Shown here piece by piece: positions 3,910 to 62,700 of a DNA stretch of 64,000 bases (position 1 is the first letter of the stretch; every line of letters starts with the position of its first letter). The notes beneath the pieces are model-generated. The model made no database searches. It was not told where the DNA came from and saw only the letters and a list, made by a program, of their open reading frames with translations. Where the stretch lies: NCBI GenBank assembly GCA_009192285.1, contig WBVU01000003.1, positions 3,007,973 through 3,071,972 on the forward strand, in the 5' to 3' direction. This DNA is from Morchella semilibera. Its lineage: Eukaryota > Ascomycota > Pezizomycetes > Pezizales > Morchellaceae. The translations under genes were made by a program, and so were the position numbers.

Positions 3910-5305
3910 CTACATGCCCACCGACAAGCAATCATCCAGCAGCCCCCTCAACTGCTTCTTATCATCCATGCCCGTGCCCTCCCACCCCTCGACATCCACC
4001 TGCCCGAGGTACTGCTCCTCGGCATCAACCTCATAGTCCCTCTCGAACCACCCGCCGGCCTGTATCTTCTTCATGCTCAGCGGCAGCTGCGCCAGCGAAT
4101 TGTGCCCCAGCCGCAGCGACAGCCGCATATCGTGCATGCTCAGGAGACGGCGCTCCGCCGGCGGCACCCACTTGCGCTTGGGCGCCAGCTTGCGGTACTT
4201 GTCCGTCTGCACGTAGTTTGGCCCGTTGGAGCGCACGCGCGAGATGATGGTCGACAGAATCTCCTTGACAAACATCTCGGCGGCGACGTTCATGAAGTTT
4301 GCGGCGTCGGCGGTGCAGCCGCCGGGGACGCCCTCCTCGTAGCAGATGGGGTTCATGCGTTGGCGGATATTCTCAATGTCGGGAAACTCGCCGGATTCGG
4401 AGGATAGGGGCATGGTGTAGCGGAGCTTGATCTCGGATTCCCAATCTGCGGCCATCAGCATCAAAACATGAATAGGCGGGGAGAGAAAAGGGAAAAGGGG
4501 GGGGGGGGTAATACTCGTCTTCGTAAGCCCTGCACTCATCGGTGGCAGCGCCTCCGGGATCTTGACCTGCTTCGCCAGGTGATATTCCTGCAGCATACTC
4601 CCCAACATATCCTCGACATCACCAAGCTTACCACAGCACCACCGTTAGCACCAGATAGCAAATATCAAAAAAACAACACTCACCTGCGAGGGCACCTCCT
4701 TGATCCTCCTCCTCTCCCTCGCCGAGATGGCCATCACCTCCTTCTTCAGCCTCTTCTCGTTCACATCGCCCGCCGGCATCTTCGCAACCGCGCTCGGCTT
4801 ATCGCTCGCCGACACCCACGCCGCCACGTCCGTCGGCGGCAGGTCGCGCATCGAGTTCCCGTACATGGCCACCAGCAGCTGGTTATGCATCCTGACGCTG
4901 GGCCCCTTGACGAACGGCCCAATGGCCCGCGTGAGCTCCTCCTGGTTCAGCCGTCCTACAAACATAATTCGGTCAGCACACCGCCACACAGGGGGGGAGG
5001 GGGGGAAGGACAAGAAACTAACCAGTGAGATACCCGCTCAGCGCCTCCTTATACACCGCCCACGCCTCCTTCCCCATCGCGCGCTTCAGCGCATCATACA
5101 TTGGCTCGAGATCGATCCTAGGCACCACAGGGGGGCCCGGAGGGGGCGGGGGCGGCGGCGCCTGAGCTCCTCCTGCCGCTGCTGCCGCTGCCGCCGCCGC
5201 CGCCGCTGCAGCTTTCGACGACGCCTGCTTGGTGGGGTGCTTTGTGCTCGCGGCGGAGCTGGACGACGGGCGGCTAGTCGGGGTTTGGGCCTCGATGTCG
5301 ACCAT
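3910..5305 (-). CDS. HFI1: HFI1/ADA1, SAGA complex core subunit (SAGA-Tad1 family)
   Basis: Hfi1/Ada1 (metazoan TADA1) is a histone-fold subunit of the SAGA coactivator core, acting in the nucleus at RNA polymerase II promoters. Model on the minus strand: exons 5305-5023, 4955-4684, 4626-4515 and 4445-3910, total 1203 nt, 400 aa. Introns are 67, 57 and 69 nt with GT-AG ends. The N-terminus has a poly-Ala run (about residues 32-44) and a poly-Pro run. The family core then begins at [17 protein letters not shown] and continues through [27 protein letters not shown] and [20 protein letters not shown]. The C-terminal half carries the histone-fold-like region ([19 protein letters not shown]) and [20 protein letters not shown]. 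The third intron has 12 C directly after the donor GTATTA. Convergent with RFT1. Confidence 0.92.
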
Positions 5306-23085: not shown

Positions 23086-26000
23086 ATGGCCGAAGACAGC
23101 GGCACCCCCGCAGCTGCTGCAAACGTGGAGGACCCGCTCGTTCTGGCCCTTACCAGCAGCTCTACGGCCCGACGCTGTGCAGAACTCTCCAGTCTCAACG
23201 ACCGAATACACAAGAATGGTATATATATAAAATATACTCTATATGAATATAATTATTAGCACACACACATACACATTGAACTCTCTTCCCATCCATCATC
23301 TATCCACTCTTACATCGGGAAAGAACCCAACCCAACTATAAGGAAAGAAAAAGAGAAAAAAGAAGAAAATAACATTGGTGATCGTGAAAAAAGAAATGAG
23401 AAAAAGCCCTCGATTCTAACCTGCGTTTTACTACTCTTACAGAACTTCCCACGGAACGTCTTCCCCTCGTATTCCGACTCCTCTTCCAGTCCCACCCTTA
23501 CTATATCGACCGTGCCTCTCGTGCCGCAGCCCGCCGCTGCTTCCAGTCCCTCCACGACTCCCCCATCCACTCTCCTGCATCCATCAAGGCTCTCATTGCC
23601 GCAATCAAAAACGAGTCCACCAAGCCAGGTATCGCCGCCTCAAACGCGTTCGTGCTCCTCGAGTGGGCATCGGACGTGCTCGCAACAATCTCAAAGACCC
23701 CCGAGGCCTTCGCCGCCCATGGCCCCCCCATCATCGAAGCGCAGGTCTCCCTCCTCGACATCTGCCTTGGCAACACGCACGCAAAGGCGTCCATCAAGAA
23801 GTCTGCCCTGACCGTCACCCGGCGCGGCCTCCGTGCAGCATTCTCGACAAAGAACGACTATGCAGCCCTCATAACGAGTATTGTGTCCAAGTTGACAGCC
23901 AAGATGCCCTCGCCGAACCCTAAGAACGCCCTGCTGCTCGGCGTGGTGGCGGGCGTGTGTGCAAGGGCCGAGAAGCCCAAGGAAGTGCTGCAGGGTCTCA
24001 GGAAGGACGTGTATGCGTTCTTTGTGCGGGAGATTGTGGGCTCGCGCACGGCGGTGCCACCGCACATATCTGGAGCGCTGCACGACTTTTTTGCGGCGTT
24101 CGCGACGACCGAGGATGTGCGGGGGGAGCTTGTGCCGGCGCTGGAGAGGGCACTGCTGAGGGCGCCGGAGGTGGTGCTGAATGATGTGGTCATGAGGGTG
24201 TTTGGGAGCCTGCCGGAGGAGATTGATCTGGCGGTGCCAATCGCCGATAGCCTTTTGAAGCAGTTTTTGTCGTGCGTCAAGAGCAGTAATGTGAATATCA
24301 GGAATGGCGCGGTGGAAGCGTTCAAGACGGGGATCACCCATACGGCGCATCCGGATGAAGCGGCGATTGTAAAGATTGCTGATGAACTTGTTGGGCCGCT
24401 GAAGGGTGGAAAGGTCACAGTAGCGGACCAGCGTATCTTGTATGCGGCCATGATCGAGGCGCTGCCGTGGTCTGAGAAACTGGTAAAGAAAGTCTCTGCG
24501 GGTCTGGCAGATATGGCATCCAAAGAGACGAACGAGATCGCAATCGCGACACTCACAACGGCAATATTCACACACCTATCACACGAGCTTGAGCTGGGGG
24601 TTGCACCTGAGAAGGCCGTCATCGATCCAGTCTCAAAGGGTCTCTCCGACAAGCGGCCAAACTTCCGACGCATCTGGGTCGCCCGCCTGGGAGATCTCGT
24701 ATGGGGACTCAGCGATGCGCCCACCGAAACAACACAGACATTCATCGCCTCCGTGCTGCCCAAGGTCATTGACGCCTGGAACGAAGTCGTCGCCAATCCC
24801 CTGCCGGCCGCGCAGAACGGCCTAGTCACAGCCGGATACGTCTACACGGCCATTGCGCTCTCGAAGCTCAGCAAGTGGACGGACCCGCGTATCCAGGCGC
24901 TGCTCAAGACCAAAGAGATCATTTCCCAATCGCTCGCTGTGGCGCCGAAGGCCTCCTTCCTGCTCAACCACAAGATCTACACAAAGCTACACCTGCCCGA
25001 GGATCACCGCTGGAACGTCCGTGCCCTCGCCGCAACCGCACCGCATATCGTCTACGATGAGTTTCACGCGGAGCAGTGGGCCCTCGCCTTCCTGTACACA
25101 CTCAGCGCGGCCTCCATACCAGCCTCTATCAAGCAGGAGTCGCTGACCGCACTGACCACCGCCCACCGCGCCTCCCCGCACACAATTGGCCGCACTATCC
25201 TCAATGGCGTCTGGCAGTGGCTCCGCCACCTCGAGGAATGCAAATCCGACTCCCCCTCCTCTGCGGCCAAGACCGGCGGCACGCACCTACACACGGCTAT
25301 CACGGCCATCGTCACCCCGCCATCCGACACCGTCCCCGCCGAAACCGTCAAGAGCACACTAATCAACCTCGCCGTCGTCGCCCACCACACGCTCATGCCA
25401 AACGTCGACTGGATTCGCCTCTGCCAGCGCGCCCACATCGACCCAGGCGCCCTCGCCACCGAGCGCGCCACACAGCTCATCGGTGAGATCAAGATGTACA
25501 CCGGCCTCTCTGGCCGCAGCCACCACATCCGGGACGCGGCGCTGCGCAGTGCCGCAACCCTCGCGTTCGTCGCGCCAGAGGCAATCACACCGCTCATAGT
25601 CAAGCTCATCACCGACGACCTGAACCCCCGCACAGCTGCGCGGCATCGGCGAGGTCGAGGCGGCCATCTGGAAGCACAGCGGCGACAGCCCATACGTCGA
25701 CATTCTCGGCCGCTCCGGGCCCGCGGCCGTCACAAAGGGCAAAGACACAGACACACTCAAGTGGGAGGCGGAGCTGCGTGCGCAGCTTGCGCAGAAGAAG
25801 GGCAGCGAGCGGAAGTTGACGGCGGACGAGAAGGCGCGGGTCGAGGAGCAGCTGGAGAAGGAGCGCGGGGTGCGGCGGCGCGTCGAGGAGGTGAACTTGA
25901 AGCTGACAAGGGGCATTGGGGTGATCAGGGCGCTGGCGGAGGGCCCACCCACCGCTGTGGAGATGTGGATGGGGCGGAGTGTGCGTGCGTTGTTGAAGGC

Positions 26001-29000
26001 GCTGGAGGCGGGGGCGGGACGTATTGTTGGTGGGAGCGGCGTCGCGGCGTTCTTGAGCTGCGCAGAGCATGTGGCGGCACGGTTGGGGGTTATGAGGATG
26101 TTTGTCGGGATCGATACATTGCGGCGCGCTAGGGATCACGGAGTTGGCACCGGAGCTACAGGAGGAGCCGTTGGGGGGTGCGTTCTTTTTTTTCCCCCCT
26201 TGGACCCCTCTCTCTTTTTTGTGTGTGGATTGATCATTGACATTTCTCATGTATAGCACTCACTACACGTATTTTGTACAGGTTACGATTCCATGGCCGA
26301 GCAGAGGCCGTTCGATACTACTTCATTGGTATATTTACTTCCATTCGTTGGGCTAATTCTAGAAAAGGGCGGCGTGGGCGTCAGCTCCACTGAAGAGATG
26401 GACGAGCAGGTGGTCCTGGCCATTGAGTTTCTCTCTTTCCATACAGAGGCTTGTATGTCTCCCCCTCTTATCCCCCTTCCTATGCCCCCGGAGTAATATC
26501 TATAGTTCTAACACCCCCTCAGGCGCAGATCCAAACCTCCCCCGCGGCGATACCCTCCAACTACTCATAAACTCCATGCAAAAATACCCTGCCCACTACA
26601 CCCTCATCAAAGACTGCTTCCTCGACCTCTGCCGCTGCATCGCCCCCACAATCACACAAACCGAAACCCAGATCCTCCTCCAGGGCGCAATCACTCCCGA
26701 GGTCAACGTCCGTACTGCAACCCTTCAGGCAATCGAGTCCGACATCGACTTGACCGACCTCGACTTCTCCTCCGAGCTCTGGCTCGCCTGCCACGACGAC
26801 GTCGACGAGAACGCCGACCTCGCAAAGACAATCTGGGAAGACAATGTCCTCGAGGTCCACGAGGCCGCTGCTGCAAAGATGATTCCGTTCCTCGACAGCG
26901 TGGACCGCCAGCTGCGGAGCGCGGCTGCCCGCTCCCTAAGAGAGTGCGTGCGCGCCTTCCCGGGGTGCTTCACGGAGACGCTGGAGACGCTGCGCGAGAA
27001 CTACATGGTCAAGGCGAAGCCGATCCTGCCCAGCTACGATGAGTTTGGGTTGCTCAAGAAGGTTGATAATCGCGACCCGTGGGAGTCACGCAGCGGCATT
27101 GCATTGGCGTTTAGAGAGCTCGCAGTGGTGTTTGATGATGGGCGGTTGGTCGAGTTTGCAAAGTGGTTGATTGAGGGCGGGCCGCTGGGGGATCGGAACC
27201 ATGCGGTTAGGGACGAGATGATTGATGCGGCGACGGCGATCATTGCTGCAAAGGGTGCGACGCATGTAGAGGAGCTCATGGGCGTGTTTGAGCAATCCCT
27301 TGAAGGACCAGACGACGGTTCAGAGCTCAAGGACCGCATCAATGAGGCGGTGATTATCCTTTACGGCGCTCTTGGCGACACTTGGGGAGCGGCGATGCGC
27401 GCATTCCGGGGGTTGTGGATAGGCTACTTGCGACGCTGAGTACGCCCTCGGAGACGGTCCAGTACGCCGTCGCCGAGTGCCTCCCACCTCTCATCAAGGC
27501 CTCCCGCGACAAGACTTCTGAGTACGTCCAGCGTCTCCTCGACCAGCTCTTCAGCGCAAAGCAATACGCCGCGCGCCGCGGCGCCGCCTACGGGCTCGCC
27601 GGCACCATCAAGGGCCGTGGAATCTCGGCCCTCAAGGACTTTCGCATCATGAGCACGCTCAGGTCCTCCATCGAGAATAAGAAGGACGCCAACATGCGGC
27701 AGGGCGCGCTCTTTGCCTTTGAGCTGTTCTCGCTCATCCTCGGCCGGCTGTTTGAGCCATACGTGATCCAGATCCTGCCGCTCCTCCTGCAAAGCTTCGG
27801 CGACAGCGTGATTGACGTGCGCGAGGCGTGCTCCGACGCGGCCAAGGTGTGCTTCTCCAGCCTGAGCAGCTACGGGCGTCAAGGTGATCCTGCCGGACCT
27901 ACTAGACGGGCTAGAGGAGAGCGCGTGGCGGAGCAAGAAGGGTGCGTGCGAGACGCTGGGGGCAATGGCGTATCTGGCGCCGCACCAGCTCGCAATCAGT
28001 CTGCCGGACATCATACCGCCGCTGACGACGGTGCTGAACGACTCACACAAGGAGGTGCGGCTGGCGGCGAACCGCTCGCTGAAGAAGTTTGGGGAGGTCA
28101 TTAGCAATCCGGAGGTGAAGGAGGTGGTGGATGTGTTGTTGAAGGCGCTGAGCGACCCGACAAAGTATACGGATGATGCGTTGGATGTGCTCATGAAGGT
28201 GTCTTTTGTGCATTATCTAGATGCGCCATCATTGGCTTTGGTGGGTTTTTCTTCTGTTCTGGGTGTGGGAGGGGTTTTATTGTGGGAGGAGTGCTGACCC
28301 GAATTTGATATATTGTAGATTGCTCGTATTCTGGAACGTGGGCTCGGCGATCGGTCAGCGACAAAGAGAAAGGCCTCGCAGATCATTGGCTCTCTCGCTC
28401 ACTTGACAGACCGCAAAGACATCATGGTTCACATCCCGATCCTCGTATCCGGACTCAAGCAAGCCATCGTAGACCCCGTCCCCGCCACTCGAGCCACCGC
28501 CTCCAAAGCTCTCGGCTCCCTCGTCGAGAAGCTCGGAGAAGAGTCCCTCCCAGATATCATCCCCGGTCTCATGGCCACCCTCAAGTCCGACACTGGCGCT
28601 GGCGACCGTCTTGGTTCCGCGCAGGCCCTCTCAGAGGTCCTCTCCGGGCTCGGTACCCAGCGCCTGGAGGAGACCCTGCCGACAATCCTGCAGAACGCAA
28701 ACAGCGCCAAACCAGCTGTTCGGGAGGGCTTCATGTCCTTGTTCATCTTCTTGCCCGCGTGCTTTGGAAACTCGTTCAGTGCGTATCTTAACAAGATTAT
28801 CCCGCCGATCCTATCGGGTCTGGCGGACGATGTAGAGTCGATCCGCGAGACGTCGCTGAGGGCCGGACGGCTGTTGGTGAAGAATTTCTCGACGAGGGCT
28901 ATCGATCTGCTGCTGCCGGAGCTGGAGCGTGGGCTGGCGGATAATAATCACCGCATCAGGCTTTCGTCCGTCGAGTTGGTTGGAGACCTGCTCTTCAATC

Positions 29001-32000
29001 TTACGGGTATCAGTGGCAAGGCGGAGCAAGATGATGATCTCGAGGCCACCGGTGAGGTCGGTAACTCGCTACTGGAGGTGCTCGGCCAGGAGAGGAGAGA
29101 CAAGGTCTTGTCCGCGCTGTACATTTGCCGCTGTGATACGTCCGGCCAGGTCAGACTTGCGGCCGTCGGTGTCTGGAAGGCGCTGGTTGCAAGCCCGAGA
29201 ACGCTCAAGGAGCTCGTGCCGACTCTCACACAACTCATCATCCGCCGTCTTGCGAGCTCCAATCCCGAGCAGAAGCAGATTGCCGGGCAGGCGCTCGGAG
29301 AGCTCATCAGGAAGGCGGGCGACGGCGTCCTGGCCACACTTCTCCCGACGCTCGAGGAGGGCCTGCGTACGGCGACAGACACGGACGCGAAGCAGGGTAT
29401 CTGCATTGCCCTCAAGGAGGTGGTCATGTCAACGTCCCCGAGGCGCTCGAGGACTACGAGGCAACGCTCGTCTCTGTTGTGCGGACCGCTCTTGTCGACG
29501 GCGATGCGGATGTTCGCGAGGCCGCTGCGGAGGCATTCGATGCCCTCCAGAAGGATATTGGAAAGCGGGCGGTGGATCAGGTGCTGCCGTACCTGCTCAA
29601 CCTGCTGAGATCGGACGAGGAGGCAGAGCATGCGCTCGCGGCGCTCCTGACGCTGCTTACGGAGCAGACAAGGTCAAACATCATCCTGCCCGCTCTGATC
29701 CCGACGCTGATCGCCCCGCCTATCACTCACTTCAACGCGCGCGCGCTGGCCTCACTGGCACAGGTTTCGGGCACCGCCCTCAACAGGCGTCTTCCAACTA
29801 TCATGAACGCACTCATCGACGGCATCGTGACCTGCAAAGACGACGATCTACGCACGGAGCTCAAGACCGCATTCGACACTGTGATCCTCTCCGCCGACGA
29901 GTACGATGGTCTCAACACGGTCATGAGCGAGCTGCTCAAGCTCGTCAAGCACGATGATCATCGCCGCCGCGCCGCCGCTCACGAACACTTTGCGAAGTTC
30001 TTTGCCGAGACGGACGTCGACTACTCGCGCTACACTCAGGACTGCATCCGGGTGCTCCTTATCTCGTTCGCCGATAGCGACGAGGTAGTGGTCAAGAACG
30101 CTTGGACCGCGCTCAACGAACTGACGAGGCGCCTCAAGAAGGAGGAGATGGAGACGCTCGTGACCTCCACCCGACAGGTACTGCAGCAGGTTGGCGTCGC
30201 CGGCCACAACCTCCCCGGCTTTGCGCTCCCCAAGGGCATCAACGCCATCCTCCCAATCTTCCTGCAGGGTCTCATGTACGGCTCCCCCGAGCAGCGGACC
30301 CAGGCCGCCCTCGCAATCTCGGACATTATCGACCGGACCAGCGGCGAGTCGCTACGGCCGTTCGTGACGCAGATCACGGGTCCGTTGATCCGTGTGGTCT
30401 CTGAGCGGTCCGTCGAGGTCAAGGCGGCCATCCTGCTGACGCTCAACGCGCTGCTGATCAAGATCCCGGCGTACCTGAAGCCGTTCCTGCCGCAGCTGCA
30501 GCGGACGTTTGCAAAGAGCCTTGCGGACACGGGGAGCGAGGTTCTGCGGACAAGGGCGGCGAAGGCGCTCGGGACGCTCATCACGCTCACGCCCAGAATC
30601 GACCCGCTCATCTCTGAGCTTGTGGCGGGCGCAAAGACGAGTGATCGTGGCGTCAAGGATGCAATGTTTAAGGCGCTGTATGAGGTTGTTGGAAAGGCGG
30701 GAGGGAACATGGGGGAGGCGTCTAAGGCGGCTATATTGGCGCTAATTGAGGATGAGGTTGATGAAGATGACGGTATGGCCCCCCCCCCCTTTTTTTCATG
30801 GGTTTTTGATCATTGGTCGTGTGGTTGTGGTTATTACGTAGCGGGACTGACTCCCTTGTGTGTGTGTGTGGACAGACCAGATGGCGATTGCCGGTGCAAA
30901 ACTTCTCGGCGTGTTGGTAACGAATCTGGGCCCTGACGATGCGGCAAGAGTGATTCGGTATGTTCTTTTTCCCCTCATTCTCTCCTCCTCCTTCTCGTCC
31001 TCTCGTCCTCTCATTCTCTCCTCTATACTCCCTCCCCCACATTCCCCCCCCCCCCCACCCCCACCCCACCCTCCTTCCTTCCCCTCACAACTCAAACCCG
31101 GGAAATGATATCGTTGTGCATATCCTGACGTCTGTCCGTTTGTGTCTCTAATTTTTTTTCTTTTTGTGCCCAAACAGAAGCCGTGCTCTGAACCCTGCAT
31201 TGACCAAAGCGTCCGTGCTTGGCCTCAACGCCGTTCTCCTCGAATCTCCAGAATCACTCATACAGCTCGATGCCGACGCCACGCCCGGCCTGATCGTCCA
31301 GGGGACTTCAAACAGGAACGTAAGTCAAGTCACTCCCCTCTCTCTCTCTCCCCCTCATCATCATCCTCCTCCTCCTTCCTCTCTCTCCCTCCAATCACAC
31401 ACCTCCATCCTCCTCATCCACTTCTTCCTCCTCCTCCTCGTGATGTTACACCCGCCCCAACCACCCAACAAACTAACCAACCAACCAACCAACCAACTAC
31501 CTAACTTAATGGACTGACTGATTGATTGACGGCTGGCTGACCCGTGAGCAAAACAGCCCTTCGTATCTGACAATTGCGTCCTCGCGGCCGGAAAGTACCT
31601 CCTCTCTGAGCACACACCAAAAGGCTACGAGACCACAAAGCATCTCCTAGAGGCCCTATCCTCCGCCATCAAGGCGCCCACCAGCGGCTCCATGGACACA
31701 AAGCGCCTCTCACTGGTAGTTCTACGCACACTTGCGCGCACACACTTTGATGTTTGTCCCCCCCACTCCCTGTCCCTGTCCCCTCTTCCCCCCCACATAC
31801 ACCCTTGTCCCACTACCCTAACCCTTATTAACACCTTCACACAGCTCATCCGCCCGCACCTACCCCTACTGGCACCCACAATTTTCGCCTGCGTGCGCGA
31901 CGTGGTGATCCCCGTGAAGCTATCGGCGGAACAGGCCTTTATCGCGCTGTTCCAAGTTGTGGCGCAGGGCGACGCCGTCTTTGAAAAGTACGCTGCGACC

Positions 32001-45174: not shown

Positions 45175-47860
45175 TACTGTACAAGGCCGCCGACAGAGCA
45201 GAGTGAACGGGAAAATAACCAAGGAGGATGTGATAATCCGTTCCGTACCTAGTCAGGCAAGGCACATCGGCAGGATGAGTGCAACGTGACGGAACGGAAG
45301 CAAGGCCTTTGTTCAAGTTTCCGATTGACCAAATGGAGGAGGAGTATGTATGTAGATGTGGGTTGAGGATCCGGGAGAGCTACGCGAGTATGCGTTTGGC
45401 ATGAAATAGTAGTACATCCGCGTGCGTTTGTTGGAGTCCCGCGTGGATCGTGTTTCGTCTCTCTTCTTTGATTGTTACATCTCAAGAACAAGTACACGAG
45501 AAAATGTGACTTTCTTAGTGGACGGTATCTCTAGCTTGTCGTGGGCTTTTTTTTTTTTTTTCCCCTCACCCCCCCACCTCTTCTTCTTCAGCTCGAGCTC
45601 CTAGCTCGAATTTTCTGAAGGGAATAGCAATCAAAGAACTAGAGAAATCTCAACTAGGTGGAAGAACAAGAAAAGAGGGATATTCAAAGAGTATATAGAG
45701 GGTTAAATATGCCTACAGCCTCTATGCGTAGATGTAATACGAAAGCCACGAGTTGTATAGCAAGCAGTAGAGTGTTCTTCTGTCTGTCATCCTCTTGTTC
45801 CTCCTACATATCACTCACTAGCCACTACATACTATAGGGTGTTGAGTTCTTTCTTGACGACAGAAACTCTATCCCTAGCTAGCTGTCTCTCTCTCCCATT
45901 TGCGGTTGTGTTGTGCCTATCACATACGCAACACAAGCTCCACCGGCAGTAGCGAGAGAAGCACAGTGGCCCCCCCCTCACCCCCCCCCAACATCATTCT
46001 TACCCAAGCTCCTTGCTTTTTGCCGGCGCGTCCCCGATTTACTTTTTCCGTAAGTGAGTGTGTGTGATCCCTTCTTATTCCATCATACAGATTCATACTC
46101 AGGCTGGATTGAGAGCATGATGTTGCAGACTCAGAGATGGGAGACTTCGATACTGGTACACCCATCGCGCTAGATGTCAATTCCCATACTCTAGAACAGC
46201 TTTATCAGAGCTATGAATGGCTTCTGCTTCTACCAAAAAGAAATACCTTTTACTGATGATTTACATGCCAGCCAGCCCTTCATCTTCATCTTCACCATCA
46301 CCATCACCATCAAGTTAGGTAGCATCAATAGGAAGCAACGTTACCGGAAGGGCAGCATAGTCCGGAACGCTTACCAACCGTGACCGCCCTCAATATCTAT
46401 CTTAATCTTGCATCATCTGCCGTTGGCTCTGTCGTTATCCGCCCACCAAGTCCTATCCGGTATACCCAATCATTGACGCCTCCATTATTATCCGATCACT
46501 CCAGTCGTAAGTCTCGTGTCTCACGCTGAAGCAAGCAATTCGCTTGTAGGACAGATCGATTTTCTGGTCACGTCAATTCACATCGCAGCAGCCAGGGGTG
46601 CGCCAAAGACCCACACAGACTGCGAATCGGCAAGAACCACGCGATAGACCTCTGAACTAAAATCAGACTTATCCCTTCCGTCTGTCGCGTGTCGTCGTGT
46701 CTTTGATTTGGTGAAGTACCAATACAGGAAGTAGAGCTACAGCAGAGACCAACCATTTCATATTTCTAGACTTCGATTCTTATTTTATTTTTCCCGGCGC
46801 ATTTGTTCCTTACCGGCCATCTCCTGCTGCTGCTGCTCCTGCTGCTGCTCATTCTAGCTTATTCTAGATCTAATACTAGTAAGAGTAAGTAATAGTTACG
46901 CCCGCTTGACCGAGCAATTTCTGAGATTTTCAAAACTTCTTTTTGATTTTTATAACAGTCTATGTTGGCAATGGAACCTTCATTTTTCCCCACGTTCATA
47001 AGTTTTTCCTTGGGACGTGGCTCCTTCCTCTCCCCACGCTCTCACTTTTATGATCCTTTCCCAAAAAAAAAAAAAAACCCACCGCCAATGAGCGGAGTAA
47101 CATTGCTTCCATTTTTATACATAGCTCCTCCTTGCCAACGCACACTCCACCGGTCTAAGGCTCTAACCAAATTCGTCACGCTACCAGCCTTTCTACCCTA
47201 ACCCTGCATCAAATCCAAGATCCGTCAGGCTAACCAGATGCGTTGTAGCTGTCGCGCCTGCAGTCCCTTTCTGCGCCAATTCTCACTCGAACCCCTGCAC
47301 CCTTTTTGTTGCGGGTGCCGAGCCAACCAATAGCAAGAGACCCCAGCAGCCTCCCAGTCAACAACCCTTTCCTCCGCCTGGTTCGTTCAGACTGGAGGGT
47401 GGCCCTCGCTCTCCGCAGGACCACTCACGACTCACGAGGAGGAGGAGGGGTATCTGGGACTGGCGCTGCGCTGTGCTGGCCTGGGAAAGGAACCACCGAC
47501 ATTCTCGCTGAGAATTGATTGCCCTTATTTTTTTTCCCTTCTTTTCTTTTTCCTTCTTCCGAAGGGGGTTCATTATTATTATTACGATTATCATTTGTGT
47601 GTTAATTGCTTGCCCCTTCCTTGGCCAAGGAGAGACGGGAAAGAAAGAAAGGAGGTGAAAAGCAAGAGATCGAGGTAAGAAGAGTGAAATAACGAGAGAA
47701 AGTTGTTACGAAAAGGCTACATACTTAGAGTGAGAGAGAGAGTGATAGATCTCTATCCTAAAAAAAAAACGAGATATAGAGAGCGATTGAGAAAGCAACT
47801 AGGAATTCCATCAAACTGGTAAGTACCCACTTTAGTTCCCTGGATTGACCAATGGGAATG

Positions 47861-49616
47861 CACTGAGTGAGCAAGTTGGATTAACTGTCCCGTTGACGGC
47901 GAAAGCTCTCTTCTCTCACTCGATTGCGCCGTCCCAACCCCCCTCCCTCACACCCATATCCGTTCCCTTTCTCTTCCCCCGGCAAGTCCAAGTCGAAAGT
48001 CCCTCGCCAGAGTCTGAACGGTTTGACACCTCTCGCCGTAACCCCTGTTCGACCCGCCCAGCCTCCAATCCAGCCTCTCTATACCAGACTAGACGGCGGA
48101 GGCAGAAAAATAGAAACCATAGTAGAAAAAAAGAAGACAGAAAAACCAGTGTACGTACATACATACCTGCCTCCTCCTTTTCCCTCTTCGCACCACCTCC
48201 ATCCCATCAACTGTGCTGTGTGAGGGCAAGCAAGCAAGCAAAAAAAAAAAAAAAGACCTCCACTTGGACGGACCATCATTGCTTGCTGCTTGCGCTACTT
48301 CCCTGCAAGTCGCCTCGACCCGCATCGTAAATTCTACATTTGCTCTTCCTCTTCTCGACTCTCTTCATTCACTCTCTCTCTTCGAGCTTTCCCCAGCCTC
48401 TCGAAGAACACTTCCCCCCATCACTCTCTACTCCTCCACACACCCCCTACCCTACCCTACACCCTCTCCCACCCCCCCCCTCCCCTCGCTCAACCTCTCC
48501 TGCTCGGTTCGTCGCGCAATTCCTTCCCTTCCCTTATTCCTCTTCCCTTCTCCTCCTCGCGCCTACCATACACGCCCTGCGTTTCCTTTGCATCATTAAC
48601 GACCGGCCGATCTTGCAGCAAGGCGCAACTGGAGCTTCACGACATTTCATTTTAAGCCTCTCCCCCGATCCAAGACATTCTAGTCACAGTTGAAAAAAAC
48701 TGCTGCTGGAGTAAAAAGGATAAGGCTCAGTGCATCTCTTACGACCAACGAGAAATACGAACGAACGAAATTTACGAGGAGGCGCTATTCTGCAATTGCA
48801 ACGACTTTCAATAATCAAAACAAAAAATCAAACACGTAAAGATAATCACGCCCCCCCCCAAAAATAGTCATCCAGCATTTACGAATTTGAAACGAAGCAA
48901 ACGCCAAAAGTTTTACTCAAAAGTTGTTATCTTTTTCCCCACGAATATTCTTCCATCCAAAGCATTGCATTCCAACCCATCAGCGAGACAAAACTCTTCC
49001 CCTGGCATTCCCCAAGCCTAGAACTGTAGTATACGGCACTGTATAATACAGGCTATTCCAGCTTTCTTCATTCCCGGACACAGGCATTGTCTTGAACTGC
49101 ATTTGTGTTCCTCAGTATCAAAAAAGTTCTTCTCTCTCTCTTTGTCTTTCTGACGTTTTTCCTTGGCTGGTATTTTTTTGCCTCGTCCATTGATTCGTTT
49201 CTGCATCCATCTGCACTTTACCGAGCAACTTGTACTGCATCTCTGTGGTTGGTTGAGCATTCCCACCTGCATCCAAGCAACAGTCTCTCATCGTCGCGGC
49301 TACAGGACGAATCCCCATTACCTTTTGCTGCATCCACTGGGAGGATTAGCCGCTATACCAAATACTGGTGGAAGCCACACCGTTATTTTAACGGTTAATA
49401 AAGACATCGAGTCTGTTGGCTGAAATAAGCACAGAGCCCTCGTCTTTTGCTGTTTTTATATTCCTCGAAATTCCCTAAATCCGCCATCAAAAGGCAATCA
49501 CCGGTCCAACCAACAAGCTGGAGCTACCTTCTCTCTCCTCGGTCCAGACTAGACCTCTCGACGTCTTTGCTGCTTGGAACGGCGGCGGGTTTAACCATTC
49601 TCACTACAAGTCGAGC
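47861..49616 (+). promoter_or_regulatory. probable 1.7-kb ATG-free mRNA leader of StuA
   Basis: Reading every position from 47861 to the StuA start codon at 49617, there is no ATG on the plus strand; roughly 20-27 would be expected. The last upstream ATGs are at 47852 and 47858 (a four-codon frame ending TGA). The stretch is pyrimidine-rich, especially 47900-48600, as in many strong fungal leaders. Such loss of ATG over this length is best explained by selection on a scanned 5' UTR. In Aspergillus nidulans stuA also has a long leader, but that one carries upstream ORFs. Any leader introns could not be placed. Confidence 0.6.
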
Positions 49617-52307
49617 ATGTCCAACGATAAGCCACCATCAGCTCTATCTATTCCGCAATCTGTAACAAACTTGTCGAATAACTCCCCTCGCTCCTTGGGT
49701 ACATCTATTCTTAACGGTCCCAATTCCGCCAACGGTTCTTCATTAAGCAAGTTGAACACTCCTCCCGGAAATAACGGGCCACCTCAGCAACACGCTCTCC
49801 CGAACCCCAATATCCCTTCCCCACAACAACAACATCCCCAGTCGTACGCTCCTCACGGCTCTCAGTTCTCGTACGGAAACGACAACTCGGGATACATGCA
49901 GTCACAAAGTCAGCCACCATATATCGGCGTTGACTTCCACCAGCATCACCTTTCTCAGGGGCAACCTCCTACACCACAGACCGCTACATCCGGAAGCAAC
50001 ATGAACTTCCCTCCACAGCCTCCTGTACTTCAGCCGAACTACAGCCAACCCCATCATAATGGCTTCCCACCATTCCCATTCTCTGGTCCTAATGGAGTCT
50101 CATCTCCTGCTGGGCAGCCCGGTGTTTCGGGGCCGATGGTGCATCCTACTCAGCAGCTGTTGCCATTGCCACAAAACACCCAGCTAACACCCAGCCCATC
50201 ACCACTGACTGCGGTATCTGCGGGGGGCCCTCAGACACCTGCATCCGCTACTGCAGCTGGTGGGTTTGGTAACCAAACATTTGATACTACTGGTCAACAC
50301 GCACCTCCTGGAATGAAACCCAGGGTCACTGCGACACTATGGGAGGATGAGGGCAGTTTATGCTTCCAAGTAGAGGCAAAGGGTGTATGCGTGGCCAGGC
50401 GAGAAGGTTTGTACTTCGCGGCAACATCACTTTATCTAAAAGTTTTCCCCCGCTAACGATTATTCAAAACGACAAAAGATAATCATATGATAAATGGTAC
50501 AAAGTTATTAAATGTGGCTGGAATGACCCGAGGAAGACGTGATGGAATCCTTAAAAGCGAGAAGGTCCGCCATGTAGTAAAGATTGGGCCAATGCACCTC
50601 AAGGGAGTATGGTAAGTAGTTGTTGCATCTAATCATAGATTTATCAGATCTACGATTAGACCGGTGAGGTTCGTTTAGGCTAATTTTCCATGTCTGCAGG
50701 ATTCCATTTGACCGTGCATTGGACTTTGCGAACAAGGAGAAAATCACGGAATTGTTGTATCCCCTCTTTGTGCACAACATTGGTGCTCTTCTCTACCACC
50801 CAGCAAATACCCACAGAACCCATGCGGTGGTGGCTGCTGCTGAGCGCCGCAAGCAGGATAACTTGCAGAACCAGATGCAACAACAGAGAAGGGGCCCATC
50901 AGAACTCATCTCCTCACCACACCCCCCTCCATTGCATCATCATCATGGTATTCAGGGCAGTATGCAGCAGCCTCACCACCTCGCTCCCCATAACCTGGCT
51001 CAAGGGCCTCATCAGATCAATAGCCGGCCCGGCATCGAGAGAAGCCTTTCATTTCCTACACCCCCCTCAAGTGCATCAAGTGTAATGGGTGGTGTTAACC
51101 CTGATGGGTCATTTTGGAATGGGGGGAACATGGTTCAAGGAGGTCCCGGTAGTCAGCCATTGGCTATTGACACTGTTATGAACAGTCGTTCCATGCCAAC
51201 CACACCGGCGACAACGCCTCCCGGTGCTGCTCTACAACAATTACAGTCATACCCACCACCACAATCTACTCTGTATAACTCAAATGGTTCAGGGATGCCT
51301 CAGAACAACCCTATTGCACAGCAGAATATGCAGAGGTTTGGACAGCCATTGCCTCAGCCACCACAGTACATGAACCAGAACAGGGAAGCCAACAACATGG
51401 GACCGCCGCCTACAGCCCGTGGCCCTCCGGCATCGCTTTCTAGACCATCATCGAGGCAGAATAACGCAGAGGAGGTACACCCCAAGGAAGAGGGTGGTGA
51501 GGAACAAATGGGCTAGAACAGGGTGAACATGAGGACCAAAACCAGGGCGAGGAGGAGGCAGAACATGAAGCTGACCATGAGGAAGAATACACACACGATG
51601 CCAACTATCCTAGCGGACATCGTCCCGGGAACTACTACCCTCCGCTCAACGCGGATCATGCTCCTCACCTCTCCCCAGAGATCAACGGATCACCCAACCA
51701 CGGTGGGCAAGCACCATCAACTCCAGTTCGATCATATGGTACTGCCAGCGGTGGTGTTCCCCGAACAATCGATGGCGGTTCTGGTGCCACCCCACGTACC
51801 GCCCCCACAGCGTCTCAGCAACAATGGGTTCACAACCCAACCGGGTACTCAACCCCGCCTAGGACTGCCACTAACGGTGGACGCCAGGCACCGCAGAGGA
51901 ATGTGTATCAGTTGGTGAGTGGTGATGCCGCTGCCGACCAGCACAACGGATCAAACGGGGCCGGTGCTCCTGATAGTGGTTACCCGGGTCAAGGTCTAGG
52001 TGTTTCTATCCCTGCACAAACGCCTCAACAGCCGTATAGTGGGATGAATGGATCATCAACCCCCTCATCTAACAAGCGTATGCGAATGGAGGACGAGGAT
52101 GAAAATGGTTCCCGTCCTTCGAGTCGGGGACATGACGAAAGGCCTGGTGCGGATTCCGAGGGGGGGTTGAAGAGGCGTAAGACGATTCGTGAAGGCTCTA
52201 CACCTGTCATTGGCGGCGCAGGCTCTACATTCGACAGGAATCCTGATGGACGTCTTAACCGCACACGGTCGGCGGTGCAGCCGGCCCGGGCAGTGGGTAG
52301 GCGGTGA
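49617..52307 (+). CDS. stuA: StuA-type APSES transcription factor (Asm1/StuA), one frame break
   Basis: A developmental regulator of conidiation and fruiting in filamentous ascomycetes, acting in the nucleus. Exons 49617-50406, 50479-50611 and 50700-52307; introns are 72 and 88 nt and both interrupt the APSES domain. With one missing base restored at about 51511-51512 the CDS is 2532 nt, 843 aa. The N-terminal 235 residues are Pro/Gln/Ser/Asn-rich. The APSES DNA-binding domain runs over about residues 236-340: [59 protein letters not shown] and [20 protein letters not shown]. The C-terminal half is low-complexity with a bipartite-type nuclear signal near the end ([21 protein letters not shown]). 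Near-identity of the APSES core to StuA separates it from Swi6/Mbp1 types, and no ankyrin repeats are present. The upstream ATG-free leader and desert suggest complex regulation. Confidence 0.95.
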
Positions 52308-55223
52308 TTTCTCTATAGACTATTTTTTTTTGTTTTAGCTTGCCCCTCAAAATTCAGCAAGGATATATCAAATTTGGCATGCAGGAGTTGAGAGTCTATT
52401 CATTCGTGTTTGATTTTAGTTTTTTGATTTTTCCGGATTGATGGGATGGGTTGAATAATCCGGTGGGTCGGCTTTTGGTTTGGGGGTTCTTTCTGTTTTC
52501 CTTTGCAAAAAAAGATATGAAGTGACGCAGCGATCCTTTTTTGTTCTTACAATAACCACACATGTCTGCGACGTATTTTCTTTTGGGTCATTATTTTTGT
52601 GAATCATTCTTAAGCTATATTCTCTAGGGGTCTTAAGTCTGCTTCCATCTGTTCATTTTTTACTTTACTTTTTGTGGATGCTTCTGTCTTATACCTGTGT
52701 TGCTAGTCTGGTCTGGTTTTCCACGTTACATCCATGTTTTCTTTTTTTTCTTCCTTCGCCTTGAGTGTTCTCACGATTGTGCTTTTATCGTAACGGCCGT
52801 CACGAATTTTCTCCCTTTCTGGTTTGTGAATGGATGGGGTAAAACTTTTATAGTGGTGGAAAATCTTTTATCAAACTTTACCATACCTTTCCTCGTGTTT
52901 CTCATAGTTATTCTTTTTTTTTTTTCTTCATTCGGGATTTGATTTATTTGTGAGTAACTTTAGGCAGGGGAGTGTTGGAATCCAAAAAAATTTGGCGGTC
53001 TCTACAACGATATCCTACAAGGCAATTTTCTGCTGTCTATTGCTTTTTGTACCTATTATTATTTACTCGGATTGATAGCTATCTGGCCTTTGATCACTTC
53101 GCTATCGGCAAAACAGCCATTGAAGCCTGCGAGGCGCGCGGAGTTGCAAAACAAACAATCCATCCATGTACGTGTCTTTCACTCAGATATTGTGAAAATG
53201 GGATAAGAATTTGGTCACTTCCGTATTTTTAATCTTTGATCTTTTGTTTCTATACAGGAGGACTACCCAATGTGATGCAATCTTCCTTGATTGATCTTTC
53301 CTCCCCCTTACATCAGCTTTCAACTCTCTCTCTTCGTCTGCGTCCTGCATCTAGTAAACGGACCGTCCCTACGTACTGTAGGCGGCGGGCCCACCACCAC
53401 CAGCACCAGTTTTTCCTCCAGAAAGAGGGAGGAAAACACCAAAGCAAAGTGCGGGGAAGGTGAGGCAGGGGCTCATTGGCTGCCGCCATACGTGTGTTGG
53501 GTGATTACTCGGTTGGATTGGAACTTATGCGTGCATGAGTAGCGGTGCGGTGTCTCCGAGGTTCGTGCGTGCATACAAATGGGGGGGGGGGGGGTGGATA
53601 TTGGAGGATCGATCTCTCTCCCTGACTTGCTGTCCCCCCCCCTCCCTTCAGATCAATTGGAGGGACTGGACACCGCCACGCCGAGCGGAGGCACTGGCCA
53701 CATCATGTACTCTATATAGTGTGCGGCACGGGGGGGAGGAGGAGGAGGAGGAGGAGGAGGAGGAGGAGGAGGAGGAGGAGTATGTAGACAAAAATCATAG
53801 ATGGTACCTATCCTCCCCATCTTCGTCCACATATGCAAGCAATGTTGCTTATTTTTCAGTGCCTTTTCTCTCCCTCCAACCTTTTTTCGTTTGACTACCG
53901 CGCATAATGTAAGATCCGAGGGGCCGGGGGAAAGGTAGCAAGATGGCCGTGATAGTAAAGGTTATGGTGATCTCGTATGTGTCCCGTCCACCCCCCATGG
54001 TACCTAGGTCAATTGCAATTGCAGCCCCAGACTTTCAAACTCTCTAATCTGCTCACCGGAAATCCAATGGTGCATAAGATACCTGTCACGTCTATCACTG
54101 TCCATCGCGTTATGTACAACCAATGCCAATGTGGTGCTGCCAAAGAAATGGGCCATGTTTTATATCATGCACTCCTTTCTTTTTTAATTATTTTTGCCCT
54201 TCTCCTCGTGGGGCTTGCCTTGTCTTATTATTACAAAAATATCCACTAGAAAAAGAGAAGACTACTGGAAGTGGTATGTACAAACCATATTGAAGAAAAG
54301 AAAGAAAGAAAAGAAAAAACCCCCGTGGGGAGAAGAAGAAGAAAAAAAAAAAAAGGGAATGTGGTGTTCCAGGTCCCAGGTTATCACACATTTCGTTGGC
54401 GAATTTAACCCATTGAGGTCAGATTTACTTTGTGCGTTTATCAAGCCGTTGATGCAGCAGGAGCGACCTTAGTACAGATACTGGAAATTTCAGCGCAAAT
54501 ACTTGTTAAAAAACGGGAGGAATTATCTCGATACAATTCTGATCGATAGTAGCATTATTCCCGATACCATATTTCGCCTTGAAACCATCATAATACGCCC
54601 AAGCCCAACTCAGCCACCACTGGGGAGAGAAAAAGACGCGAATAGAAAAACCCTCGGAGCATCATGAAGTAGAAAAAAAAAATCCCCTGACGCATACCCC
54701 CATCCTATTCACATGAAGAAAGAAAGAGAAAATAAGGAATATTCCGTAACCCACACCCCACCGACATGTATGAACTGAACACTCCGTACTCGCAGTAATA
54801 ACAAAGACACAATTATCCACATCTATCCTAGGTTGCCCCACCCGTGTAAGTAGTTATGTGCAGTCCAGTGTCCACAACACCTATCCCTTTCGCCTTGCCA
54901 TCACGTGGCAGATTGGGCTCTAAATGAGAAAGAAATACGTAAAGAAAGGGAAGAAAAGAAATATGAGGAGTTAAAAAAGCAAAGTAAGTAGTAAAAATAT
55001 TCACACCAGCTTCCCAATGGTTAAGGAAACTAAGACGGAAAAAAAAGAAGAAAAAAACATACAGGCCAACCACACACCCTTCGCCAACATCCTCAGGTAA
55101 TATGTTCAAGAAACACAACGGGGATAATAAAAACAGACAAACGCCATAAATATGATACCAAAGATAGCCACCCAGTAACAAAGGAACCCTTCCTCAAACC
55201 AACCCCATAAAACATCACTTAAC
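52308..55223. other. convergent 3' spacer, StuA / MIT-domain gene
   Basis: About 2.9 kb. The first 650 nt are T-rich and likely StuA 3' UTR; 54500-55220 is A-rich and likely the 3' UTR of the minus-strand gene. Between them are a G14 run (53581-53594) and a GGA repeat (53735-53780). No gene seen. Confidence 0.6.
53735..53780. repeat. GGA trinucleotide repeat
   Basis: About fifteen GGA units. They create a poly-Glu or poly-Pro open frame on either strand with no other coding support. Confidence 0.9.
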
Positions 55224-58200: not shown

Positions 58201-59743
58201 AATCCGTCCTTGGGGGTACAGGGGTATTATTGTGCGGCACACCATTCCCATAATATCCTTTACCTAGGACAGGCGTCGCTGAAGCAGTAGAAATTATTAT
58301 TGTTGACTCGCCATCGTCATCAATCGTGAAGAGACTTTCACGATCTGTATAGTCCTCTGTGAGCGGGCGCGCGGGGAGCTGTTTCTGTGTAGCTACGTTC
58401 CGTGGGGCGAGAGCTCTCAGTTCTTCGATACGTTGGGTATATGTTTGTTGCTACTCACACCTAAATTAGCTCCGTTTCAACACACCTCCCTAGTACCTGG
58501 CAACTAATGTTTCATGCAAGGCAAAAAGAACAAGGTTTATAATAAACATCAAAAATATCGCGGGGTTCAGGAACAGAGTCATCATAGCTGCTGCTGTGCG
58601 GCGGGGTGGGAGGCTTACTATAGCCTGCAATTTTCTCCTATCTTCCTCCCCTTCAGCTCTCCTCATCACCTGTTCCAGCAACACACAAGCATCCCCGTAT
58701 GCCACCATTGCGCCCTCGTAATTCTCTGCATTGTCAAGAGTGACCGCCGTGTTGGCCTTCTGCAGAGCGGATGATAACATCGCCTTCTGACTAGGCGACC
58801 GGTGCTCTCTTGTTTTGGCCCTCGGCGACCCCCTTGTCCTTACAGAATCAGTTGGTGAAAATGTCGAGTTCTTCTGTGGTTCCTGCGCGAATGCGGGGAG
58901 AAGCGATGGACCCTCGCTACTGCTGCTATGTTGCGCGCGAGTATTGTTGATCCCGTAGTAAGGAGCGGGGGACGAGGTAGCGATGGATAATTGCGCAGCG
59001 GGATTCGTGCGTCGAGGCCGCGGGGGCGACGATTTCCAGAACTGAGACCCTTCGGATGTTCCAGTCGATGGCGTAGTTATGGAAGAATTCGTTCCGGAAT
59101 AGCTTAATGGAAAGGGGTTTGTTGCAGCAATAACAGTGGCAGGGCCGGGAAGACGTCTTGCTGGAGAAAGCTGAGAAACCGCGTCGTTTGTGTGGGAGTG
59201 CAATTTTAATGCAGGGCGGAACCTAGATATCGGCGACGAATTGGATTGGGGAGCTGTGGGTGTGGACGAGGTTGAAGGTGTGTTATTAGTGGTGGTGGTG
59301 GTATTGGTAGTAGTGCTTGTGGTGGTAGGAGATGTCGCAATAAGATTTGCCTCGTTATCAAAGCTCCCGGAGATGCCAAAAAGATCAATGCTACGGCCCC
59401 TAATAGTACGCCCACTATCCGAGCCCTCTTCCTGAGCTGCTGAAGGTCTTTTCTCTCTTTCTGGCCTTGTAAAGTCAGGCGATAACACTGCGTGCAATGG
59501 AGCCGCTGTAGCGGACACCCCCTTCCCAGAGGATGTTGACGATATTGATGCCGATGAGGTAGACCTATGGTGAGGAGGATGTGGGTGGTTAGGGTGGTTA
59601 TTTTGAGCCGATGGCGGACGTTGGTATCCAACGCGAGATGCGGTAATAGCAGAAGCAGCAGCAGTAGTACTGGCAACGGCACCAGTGCGAGCTGGTGACG
59701 GTGACGGTGATGCTACTGCTGATGTCCCACTTGACCGCACCAT
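55224..59743 (-). CDS. MIT-domain protein of filamentous ascomycetes, one frame break
   Basis: Minus-strand exons 59743-58619, 58450-56581, 56510-55513, 55402-55224; introns are 168, 70 and 110 nt. With one T restored in a T4 run (plus-strand A4, 55738-55741) the CDS is 4173 nt, 1390 aa. The N-terminal 310 residues are Ser/Thr/Pro-rich and disordered. A MIT (microtubule-interacting and transport) helical bundle follows at about 325-390: KAMLSSALQKANTAVTLDNA, ENYEGAMVAYGDACVLLEQV, then TYTQRIEELRAL after the first intron. A long disordered middle has acidic and Arg/Glu-rich segments. The C-terminal third is conserved and folded: KPYWLMRCLYQTVAHPRGGY, ISARVFVPREVWFIKGVKIK, then helices up to LADVTLLLDKFVKRGTEWVS. 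MIT domains usually bind ESCRT-III tails, so an endosomal or septation role is plausible but inferred. Confidence 0.88.
58451..58618 (-). other. MIT-gene intron 1 with in-frame hydrophobic readthrough
   Basis: The donor is GTAAGC after LQAI and the acceptor is GAGTAG before QQTYTQRIEEL. At 168 nt it is the longest intron of the gene. If retained, the frame stays open for about 40 codons, encodes a hydrophobic stretch (LFLNPAIFLMFIINLVLFAL) and stops near 58490. Confidence 0.7.
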
Positions 59744-62700
59744 CCCACCCAGCGGATTGTAAGTTGCTTTTTCTTAATTTTAGAGAAGGGAGGGGTAGGA
59801 AACCTCCGCTTTAGGGTGGTTGGAAGATATTTGGGGGAGGTTAGGCTGGCTGGTTGGCTGGGATGCAGTCTAACTCAACTTCGCACTTGTTTCCAGCAAA
59901 TGAGGTGCTACTTTGAATTTGATAGGGAATTGTTGATTCAGAATATGGGAGAAACAAAAAAAAATGTGGATAATCTAGGCAGGACCAGGCACGAGGTGTC
60001 CAGTTGGGGAGAGGGTTGCCCCTGAAGGTAGGTAAGGTTAGCAACGAGGGATTGATTCGGCGGGTACGTACGGGGGAGGGATACTCACTTTGGGTTTTTT
60101 TTTCTCCCTTCCCTTTGAGTGTAGGATTTTCCTGTTTTCCTTTTGTATGTCTGATGGATGTCTCTCTCTTATCCTTTTTTCTTTTTCTTCCACTGCTAAT
60201 AGAGCCCTTGAACTGTAAACCAGCCAGCCAGCGGGCTGTTGGAAGAGGGAGAAGGTCTCCCTCTTTCCTGCTATTACTCGGTACGTCCTAGTACTGATTG
60301 ATTCAATCAACAATGACCTCTTTCAACTATCTTTGGGGTTTACAACCTCTTCAGCAGGAGAGATACAATGAAACGCTGAAGGGCGAAGGAATTCAGGATG
60401 CTCTATTAGTTAGCTTATGCTAGTCCAGCAGTGATGAGTGACCAATCAGTATGTGAGTGAACAAAGCAGGTTTTCTTTTCTGTCGAGTGAAGGATCAACA
60501 CACGATATCGATTGGAGAAGGAAATCGAGGGTTTACGACACGGTAATGCGTATGTAATGGGTAAGGTATGGGTCAAGGTTTAAGCATAGGAGAAATTGAC
60601 TTGTTAAGAGGAGGGGGAAAAAGTCCTACCCTGGTCACTCAAACTTGTGTGACGCTCAAGTAAATACATGTACCCAGAGAATGCGTGAGAGAAGAGAGGA
60701 AGGATACTCTCACTAGGTGGCTGCGGCTAAGAAAGAAACAATGGATAAGGTTTAGAAAAAAATTTCTAGTAATCTTGCTCCTGATATGGAAAAATATAGG
60801 TTATAGGACAAGCACATGTAGACATACATGTAACTACATACATATACATGTAGGGATAGAGAATCAACGGAAGACGCGGGGCCCTCTGCATTTCCTCTTA
60901 CGATGTTTTCTTAATTGTTCTCCTCCTGCTTGTCGTTTGCGAATAATACATATGATATCTGACGGAATACACTTACGCTTACATGTACTTAGCGCTTATG
61001 AAGATGCAGGTACGTGCGTGTACTTGTTGTTTGCACATACATGGTACATAGAATGTACGTACTAAGGAGTAAGTTCATGTACTCTAAAGTACTTACAGCT
61101 GTTTCCATGCCCAGTCCCCTTCTCCCTGGCACTCTCACTGGCTTGTTACCCCTGAACCGCTCTCCAACGACGATGATCTGAGCCACCGTTCTTTGACGGG
61201 AGATCAGGCATCTTGTTTATGATCCTAGACCTCCCGCTGCATGTTGTACTTTTTTTCTGCCGCCAGAACTGGCACCCTTCGGCAGCTTCTAGCGCTCCAA
61301 TGACAATATAGAGCCATGGCGACATGGTGCGCATTCACTTACCTATATGTGCATAAGTATAGATAATGTTTTTGATGAACCAACCTTGGAGGAACGCGAA
61401 TAGCAACGAGGACGGAATAAGAACATTGAAGCATCTGTTGTCGCGCAAGCAGCTACCCGCGAATAATAAACCCACTACCAGCTACTCTAAGCAAGGGTCA
61501 GTTTCGGTATTAACCCCTAGATAAGTATCCTAGTTCGATATCTAAAGCGCCATGCTACAGCAAGTACCAATATCATGTATATCTTATTTATTGTCCCCGC
61601 ATTATCTAAAAAAAATACCGAGCAATGATGCCGAGAACAAATTAAAGTATAAAATCATTCATCAAGTCAACGAACCATCACGAACAAGGTCCAGGGCATA
61701 TGCTGACAAGAAAATAAAAGTGGCCGATTCGGAAAGGCTAGCTGCTTAGGGTTGTAGTGGGTAGTTGGTCTGTTCATTATTCATGTCTCGCCGAAATAGA
61801 CGAGCCCACGGAAGGTTCGGCACATACCCCATTTCTTCAAGAAACCGAGGTAAAGTATATGTACATACCCAAAAAATGTGGTTAATGTCGGATAGGTCTT
61901 TTGGCTTGTGGTAAACACGAGGGGGTTGATTATATTCCTGGTTGGCCTAGGAGGTTGAATCTTGACGTACTTAGGTGAGTACTTCTACATGTGAACCAAC
62001 GCCTTCCAACCCACTGGGTTCAAACAATCCGCAAAATGACGTGCGTGGAATCTACCTACTTCAGCCTCAAGATTTAAATCAACATTCCCAAGACCGATAA
62101 AATTCTTTGGGCAAACAGAAGACACCACAGGGGAAAAAGAAAAAAGGGGTAAAATACATGTACGTGTATGCAATAAGTATCCCTCCGACAAGCGACGTCA
62201 CAGGTTTAGCGCCACAATTGTTTTCACACGATGCTTTCAGGTTCTTGAGATTTTGATTCACAGGCATCACTACTTTTACACATATACTCTACCTACCCGT
62301 GGTTGGGAGACTCTTAGCACCTGGTTTAGATACATGTATGTTTAAGTCAGCTATGTTGCACCGCATATCATTTTAGGGAGGGTAGGTGACCCACCTACAT
62401 GTATGTAGGTACACCTGCGCCGAGCCAATGCATGCAGGTGCATTAGCACTAAAATTTATGCATTTGTCGTCAAGGAATTATTCATGCCAAGAACTCGTGG
62501 ATGATTGCGCATCATGAGGTATCATTCGGTCATGTGGATTCACGTGGGCTACACAACACCCCAAACCATCTACAAAAATAGTAGATTATGAAGATTTGAA
62601 GACATGATTGCATGATCGATTCCACGCGCGCAATTATAGAGGCCAAGTATGAAGGTGGGAGGGCGCCAGCCTACCCGCCGGCGCAAGAATGCTAGAGAAA

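Follow-up and report, generated by a model that had tools for sequence, protein, structure and literature searches.

The plus strand directly upstream of the StuA gene of Morchella semilibera is free of ATG over 1,756 nt (positions 47861-49616 of the 64,000-nt stretch of DNA analysed here, which we call the window), and this absence is exact and is not a matter of chance. We think it probable that the StuA mRNA has this interval as its 5' leader, from which selection keeps upstream AUGs out. Long leaders tend to gather upstream AUGs. The ATGs flanking the interval on this strand are those at 47238, 47852, 47858 and then 49617, the last being the first ATG of the StuA frame, so the initial annotation was right both about the missing triplet and about the gap ending at the initiation codon. 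Its estimate of about 20 expected ATGs is near the 18.9 obtained from mononucleotide shuffles of the interval (A437 C570 G287 T462; 3,000 shuffles, minimum 5), and the comparison with shuffled sequence that it had suggested gives, with dinucleotides preserved, zero found against 14.0 ± 3.1 expected (5,000 shuffles, minimum 3).

This gap is the largest of the window on either strand (1,759 nt), the runners-up being 697 nt on the plus strand and 963 nt when both strands are taken, the latter within a coding frame; 60 dinucleotide shuffles of the whole window gave a longest plus-strand gap of 672 nt. A genome sample of 20 other 10-kb stretches, picked by coordinate alone (base 500,001 of C1-C19 and base 1,500,001 of C1), held 6,468 ATG gaps, counting both strands, none of them longer than 813 nt. 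One stretch of the sample, L012, nearly duplicates L011, and without it 380 kb of strand contained a single gap of 700 nt or more. We also looked at the frames opened by the ATGs that close such gaps. The idea that gaps of 400-700 nt are closed by ATGs opening long frames was rejected, since for 29 such gaps, in two classes, the share whose closing ATG opened 100 codons or more was 5.3% in one class and 0% in the other. For gaps above 700 nt the median frame at the closing ATG was 187.5 codons, a figure that comes from four gaps of which three lie in this window. A long gap in another triplet occurs elsewhere in the window: plus-strand frames at 23400-30936 match GCN1 (Gcn1_N E 3.3e-111, HEAT_GCN1), and the first of them encloses a 2,592-nt gap without TTA (23498-26090).

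The loss of ATG is specific to the coding strand. Its reverse complement CAT, which marks ATGs of the opposite strand, is not depleted in 47861-49616 (41 against 26.8 expected), and ATG has the lowest ratio of observed to expected of all trinucleotides in the interval. Since pure base composition should not make ATG loss differ between strands, we read the deficit as selection acting on a transcript, and what is selected is likely the lack of upstream AUGs in an mRNA leader. The deficit is also confined in position. Across 17 bins of 500 nt between 38001 and 46500 the observed-to-expected ratio varied from 0.71 to 1.76; the three bins of 48001-49500 gave 0/2.3, 0/3.8 and 0/6.9; and within the gene ATG was back at expectation, with 11/9.4 and 11/12.0 in the two bins of 50001-51000. 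The best-supported part of the putative leader is 48601-49616, with no ATG against 10.8 expected and 26 CAT against 18.6, and the signal of 47861-48600 taken by itself is weak, as only 3.4 ATGs are expected there. The whole of 47861-49616 may be transcribed as mRNA leader, of which the strand-specific loss of ATG is an indirect sign.

The gene that follows encodes an APSES transcription factor. From the first ATG, which has A at -3, coding exon 1 runs from 49617 to 50406, exon 2 with part of the APSES domain from 50479 to 50611 and exon 3 from 50700 to the stop of its frame at 51516, all on the plus strand and with exon borders judged by eye. The domain, which is interrupted by introns, was joined across them and then matched Pfam KilA-N (E 1.1e-10, 41.8 bits for a cut-off of 23.8) and Mbp1 structures (best E 3.8e-5), so that the protein carries the APSES / KilA-N DNA-binding domain typical of the StuA/Efg1 group; within that family we take it to be StuA from its sequence features. 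A PF04383 profile search of the organism's own genome matched only a gene on C20 and missed the StuA locus. Upstream of 49617 the StuA frame meets a stop at 49476 with no in-frame ATG in between. At the other end, coding may continue in 51501-52307, an overlapping frame of 268 open codons. The exon 3 frame would be joined to it by a GT...AG segment of 47 nt at 51475-51521, and the change of frame there is possibly a short intron or an assembly indel.

Depletion of ATG resumes upstream of the interval. The segment 47239-47818 holds no ATG against about 6.2 expected (CAT 5 against 4.6) and may be a further leader exon, and 46266-46961 holds none against 7.9. Altogether 46266-49616 contains seven ATGs where 31.6 are expected: five in 46962-47238, which form an island (46962-47240) between the ATG-free 46266-46961 and 47239-47851, and the two at 47852 and 47858. 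These last two belong to the tiny frame pointed out in the initial annotation, and it is real: four codons, ATG GGA ATG CAC TGA, at 47852-47866. Both lie in an 87-nt intron-like segment, 47819-47905, found by a stringent rule (GTAAGT, then YTRAY, then the first AG, no longer than 150 nt), and they are the only ATGs of 47239-49616. Between 47000 and 49700 this rule gives a single start, 47819, with two possible ends, 47867 and 47905, and both ATGs are inside either form. Segments of this kind make up 1.1% of the sampled strand and contain 100 of its 8,272 ATGs. A second intron-like segment of 364 nt, 46885-47248, came from a listing of donors and branch-acceptor pairs (GTAAGT at 46885) and would enclose the ATGs at 46962, 46971, 47050, 47088 and 47238; for the alternative ends of this donor, 47187 and 47219, ATG 47238 falls outside.

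These putative introns are conjectural. A rule of GTAAGT, a branch-like site and AG was not enriched over shuffles, either within 100 nt (13 against 15, 16 and 15) or within 450 nt (72 against 77, 75 and 84), and GT donors found partners barely more often than control hexamers did (11.5-20.9% against 7.7-14.9%, over all 19 hexamers with GTCCTA and GTTCCA counted as controls). The initial annotation had offered a transcription start or a leader intron at the last two ATGs. The return of the depletion at 47239-47818, together with the position of both ATGs inside 47819-47905, favours a candidate intron over a start site at 47852/47858, and the two ATGs may be spliced out.

StuA is the extreme of a pattern that is seen in milder form at some other regulators of the same genome. 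Regulator loci came from five family searches and a KilA-N search, and twelve were taken: TEA, WOPR1, WOPR2, STE12, velvet, FKH1, FKH3, velvet2, velvet3, FKH2, FKH4 and the C20 KilA-N gene. A C23 velvet match with stops, a weak C14 velvet match and the C13 copy of WOPR2 were left out, this copy serving for comparison with C12 only. Sense ATG gaps of at least 700 nt, from 704 to 1065 nt, were present at four of the twelve: WOPR1 (840 and 780), WOPR2 (774), STE12 (1065) and velvet (791 and 704); on the antisense strand none of the twelve loci had such a gap. The 780-nt gap of WOPR1 and the 774-nt gap of WOPR2 extend right up to the earliest ATG of the domain frame. The ATG closing the STE12 gap opens a frame of 106 codons upstream of the STE domain frame, presumably coding exon 1, a reading helped by the N-termini of Ste12 proteins. 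The two velvet gaps close at short frames upstream of the guessed start. A further velvet locus has a sense gap of 685 nt, and at the remaining seven of the twelve nothing above 600 nt occurs among the gaps listed (TEA 535, FKH1 464, FKH3 285, velvet2 329, FKH2 565, FKH4 406 and the C20 gene 449).

Pooling of starts places the depletion close to the coding sequence. Eight starts were pooled, those of TEA, WOPR1, WOPR2, STE12, velvet, FKH1 and FKH3 and that of an MIT-domain gene of the window, leaving aside StuA, velvet2, velvet3, FKH2, FKH4 and the C20 gene; the TEA and velvet starts are guessed. In successive 500-nt bins going upstream, observed and expected ATGs were 10/33.5, 27/50.1, 67/66.8, 61/63.4 and 88/69.6, and CAT stayed near expectation in the same bins (83/72.8, 83/80.0, 62/63.5, 66/63.3 and 65/69.5). 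The first bin was scarcely depleted at FKH1 (4/5.2) and FKH3 (4/6.8). As the pooled depletion is mostly gone by 1 kb, StuA lies beyond it. The purge of upstream AUGs proposed in the initial annotation agrees with a loss that is limited to one strand, stops where StuA has its first in-frame ATG and recurs more mildly at several regulators. Two of these loci have features of their own. The WOPR gene of L024, in reverse orientation, has a five-ATG island (4294-4453) between its gaps of 840 and 780 nt; this island lies just before what looks like a strong 3' splice site (TTAAC...TAG, ending at 4506) and is possibly a second case of upstream ATGs kept in a leader intron. The MIT-domain gene, on the minus strand, has this domain in its first long frame (58490-59773), and 844 ATG-free nt (59746-60584) lie there between the ATG at 60587 and the first in-frame ATG at 59743.

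Relatives and alleles of the locus were also looked for. In a search for the StuA domain none of 598 pattern matches in genome_contigs and 11 in viral_contigs encoded a relative, and these two collections gave no fungal homologue. The genome had no match to the leader DNA other than the leader itself, so that no second allele was found there. Stretches of C9/C10 and C12/C13 (L011/L012, L014/L015 and L025/L035) aligned with 0 mismatches and with 5, 30 and 25 gap openings, respectively, and the pair C17/C18 gave no match. This suggests that the near-identical contigs are duplicated contigs with indel noise and not diverged haplotypes.

The putative leader was further examined for structure and motifs. 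Its folding is weak (-18.0 kcal/mol per 120 nt, where coding exon 3 has -30.4) and equals that of shuffles (z -0.2), so RNA structure was rejected as a special feature of the leader. No RNA family reached its gathering score in 46000-53000; a match 3' of the gene, at 52496-52651, scored 26.9 for a gathering score of 60 bits (E 0.31) and was taken as chance. Repeats in the leader are short and of low identity. CATTCY, which we take to be the AbaA motif, occurs 6 times against 1.9 expected, and the motifs that we likewise assume for BrlA and StuA are near or below expectation in the leader in both orientations. TGCAT occurs 8 times (1.1-1.2 expected with a first-order model, 3.4 with a second-order one) and CNYTCNYT 16 times (6.8 expected, first-order); as RNA, UGCAU is linked to Whi3 in the passage available from PMC3875557 and CNYUCNYU is the Ssd1 motif in that from PMC8934651. 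For each of the two motifs, 0.95% of 2,220 genome windows had a count as high, some of these windows being the leader itself, and six other long ATG-poor stretches had 2 TGCAT against 3.3 expected and CNYTCNYT in all six. Five copies of CTGCAT fall within 237 nt (49097-49333), where about 0.4 would be expected in the whole 1,711-nt stretch (first-order). ACG (26 against 16.0) and ATA (21 against 13.0) are over-represented in 47906-49616, and the excess of ATA, CTG and TTG arises in part because ATG is absent. We regard these motifs and the trinucleotide excesses as leads only.

If 47861-49616 is the StuA leader, at least one form of the transcript would include most of it and, with 47239-47818 added, the spliced leader could reach about 2.3 kb. 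Ribosomes loaded at the cap would then scan through a sequence from which selection has removed upstream AUGs and start at 49617. Against so long a leader stand the weak signal of 47861-48600, the end of the depletion at about 1 kb at other genes, the seven of twelve regulators whose listed sense gaps do not exceed 600 nt and a CT-rich block at about 48330-48560, which could be a promoter. An alternative is proximal or nested promoters, the main start lying at about 48560-48620, just after the CT-rich block, and being followed by a purged leader of about 1 kb, with the DNA further upstream serving as promoter or belonging to a minor longer form, in the manner of stuA alpha and beta of A. nidulans. 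CT-rich blocks are known to precede fungal start sites, and such a block is seen here. Most of the ATG deficit falls in 48601-49616, the depletion at other genes extends over roughly 1 kb, and the available passages on A. nidulans stuA describe two start sites (PMC3596290, PMC5996154). Against a proximal start stands the renewed depletion of the same strand at 47239-47818, and we give such a start a real but clearly minor chance of being correct.

Two other explanations have less in their favour. The stretch might be untranscribed and lack ATG by chance or because promoter DNA is poor in G, which makes up only 16% of it, and developmental genes may have long promoters; dinucleotide shuffles that never reached zero in 5,000 trials and a CAT count above expectation make this quite improbable. 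Part of the stretch might instead be coding, translation starting at a near-cognate CTG at 49518 (A at -3, G at +4) to give an N-terminally extended StuA. The frame is indeed open from 49479 to 49616 with this CTG inside, but such an extension covers at most 138 of the 1,756 nt, and we hold it to be very improbable indeed as the cause. The long StuA leader remains the reading that we prefer, and the absence of ATG likely comes from ordinary selection to keep upstream AUGs out, here unusually complete and extending unusually far. It can be taken further into one joint scenario that is unlikely to be right in all its parts together: the leader would measure up to about 2.9 kb in three AUG-free exons, with all seven ATGs of 46266-49616 in two leader introns; retention of the small intron would restore the four-codon uORF and act as a splicing-controlled translational switch, replacing the permanent mini-ORFs of A. 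nidulans; and in this fungus upstream AUGs would have been cleared over kilobases from a set of developmental regulators.

Should the 1.76 kb be transcribed, nature would have provided a test of the distance that scanning ribosomes can cover, and of the reasons why one regulator is controlled by mini-ORFs in one fungus and by a leader free of AUGs in another. Two WOPR genes, a Ste12-type gene and a velvet gene show the pattern in milder form, which suggests that some developmental regulators follow a rule. Among fungi at large AUG-free leaders are not the rule, as the transcript leaders of Neurospora and Cryptococcus are long and AUG-rich in the passages seen of PMC7049704, whereas several regulators studied here have long upstream stretches that are AUG-poor to AUG-free. 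In the literature searched we found no paper on an AUG-free StuA leader, and the available part of an article on the Histoplasma orthologue STU1 (PMC12505909) treats it in ways without bearing on leaders. For A. nidulans stuA, partial texts describe two start sites and alternative splicing for the transcripts alpha and beta, as well as mini-ORFs in long leaders (PMC3596290, PMC5996154), one passage placing mini-ORFs in the long leaders of both (PMC5996154). That passage bears out the contrast with A. nidulans drawn in the initial annotation: no mini-ORF occurs in 47861-49616, the 1.76 kb next to StuA being without ATG, and the four-codon frame 47852-47866 lies just upstream. The nearest parallel is EFG1 of Candida albicans, the StuA orthologue, as it appears in the excerpts available from PMC6034079. 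The large EFG1 transcript starts near -1100; its leader, about 1.1 kb long, lacks an AUG uORF in SC5314 and has a four-codon uORF in another strain, and a 218-nt element of this leader was shown to be necessary for translation. Both are APSES genes, and that of Morchella has, as a leader of the EFG1 type would require, more than 1 kb of DNA without ATG directly upstream of the start; the EFG1 leader measures about 1.1 kb, whereas the ATG-free DNA of Morchella extends over 1.76 kb. A long leader without upstream AUG is a known kind of arrangement, of which the StuA case would be extreme in degree and probably ordinary in mechanism.
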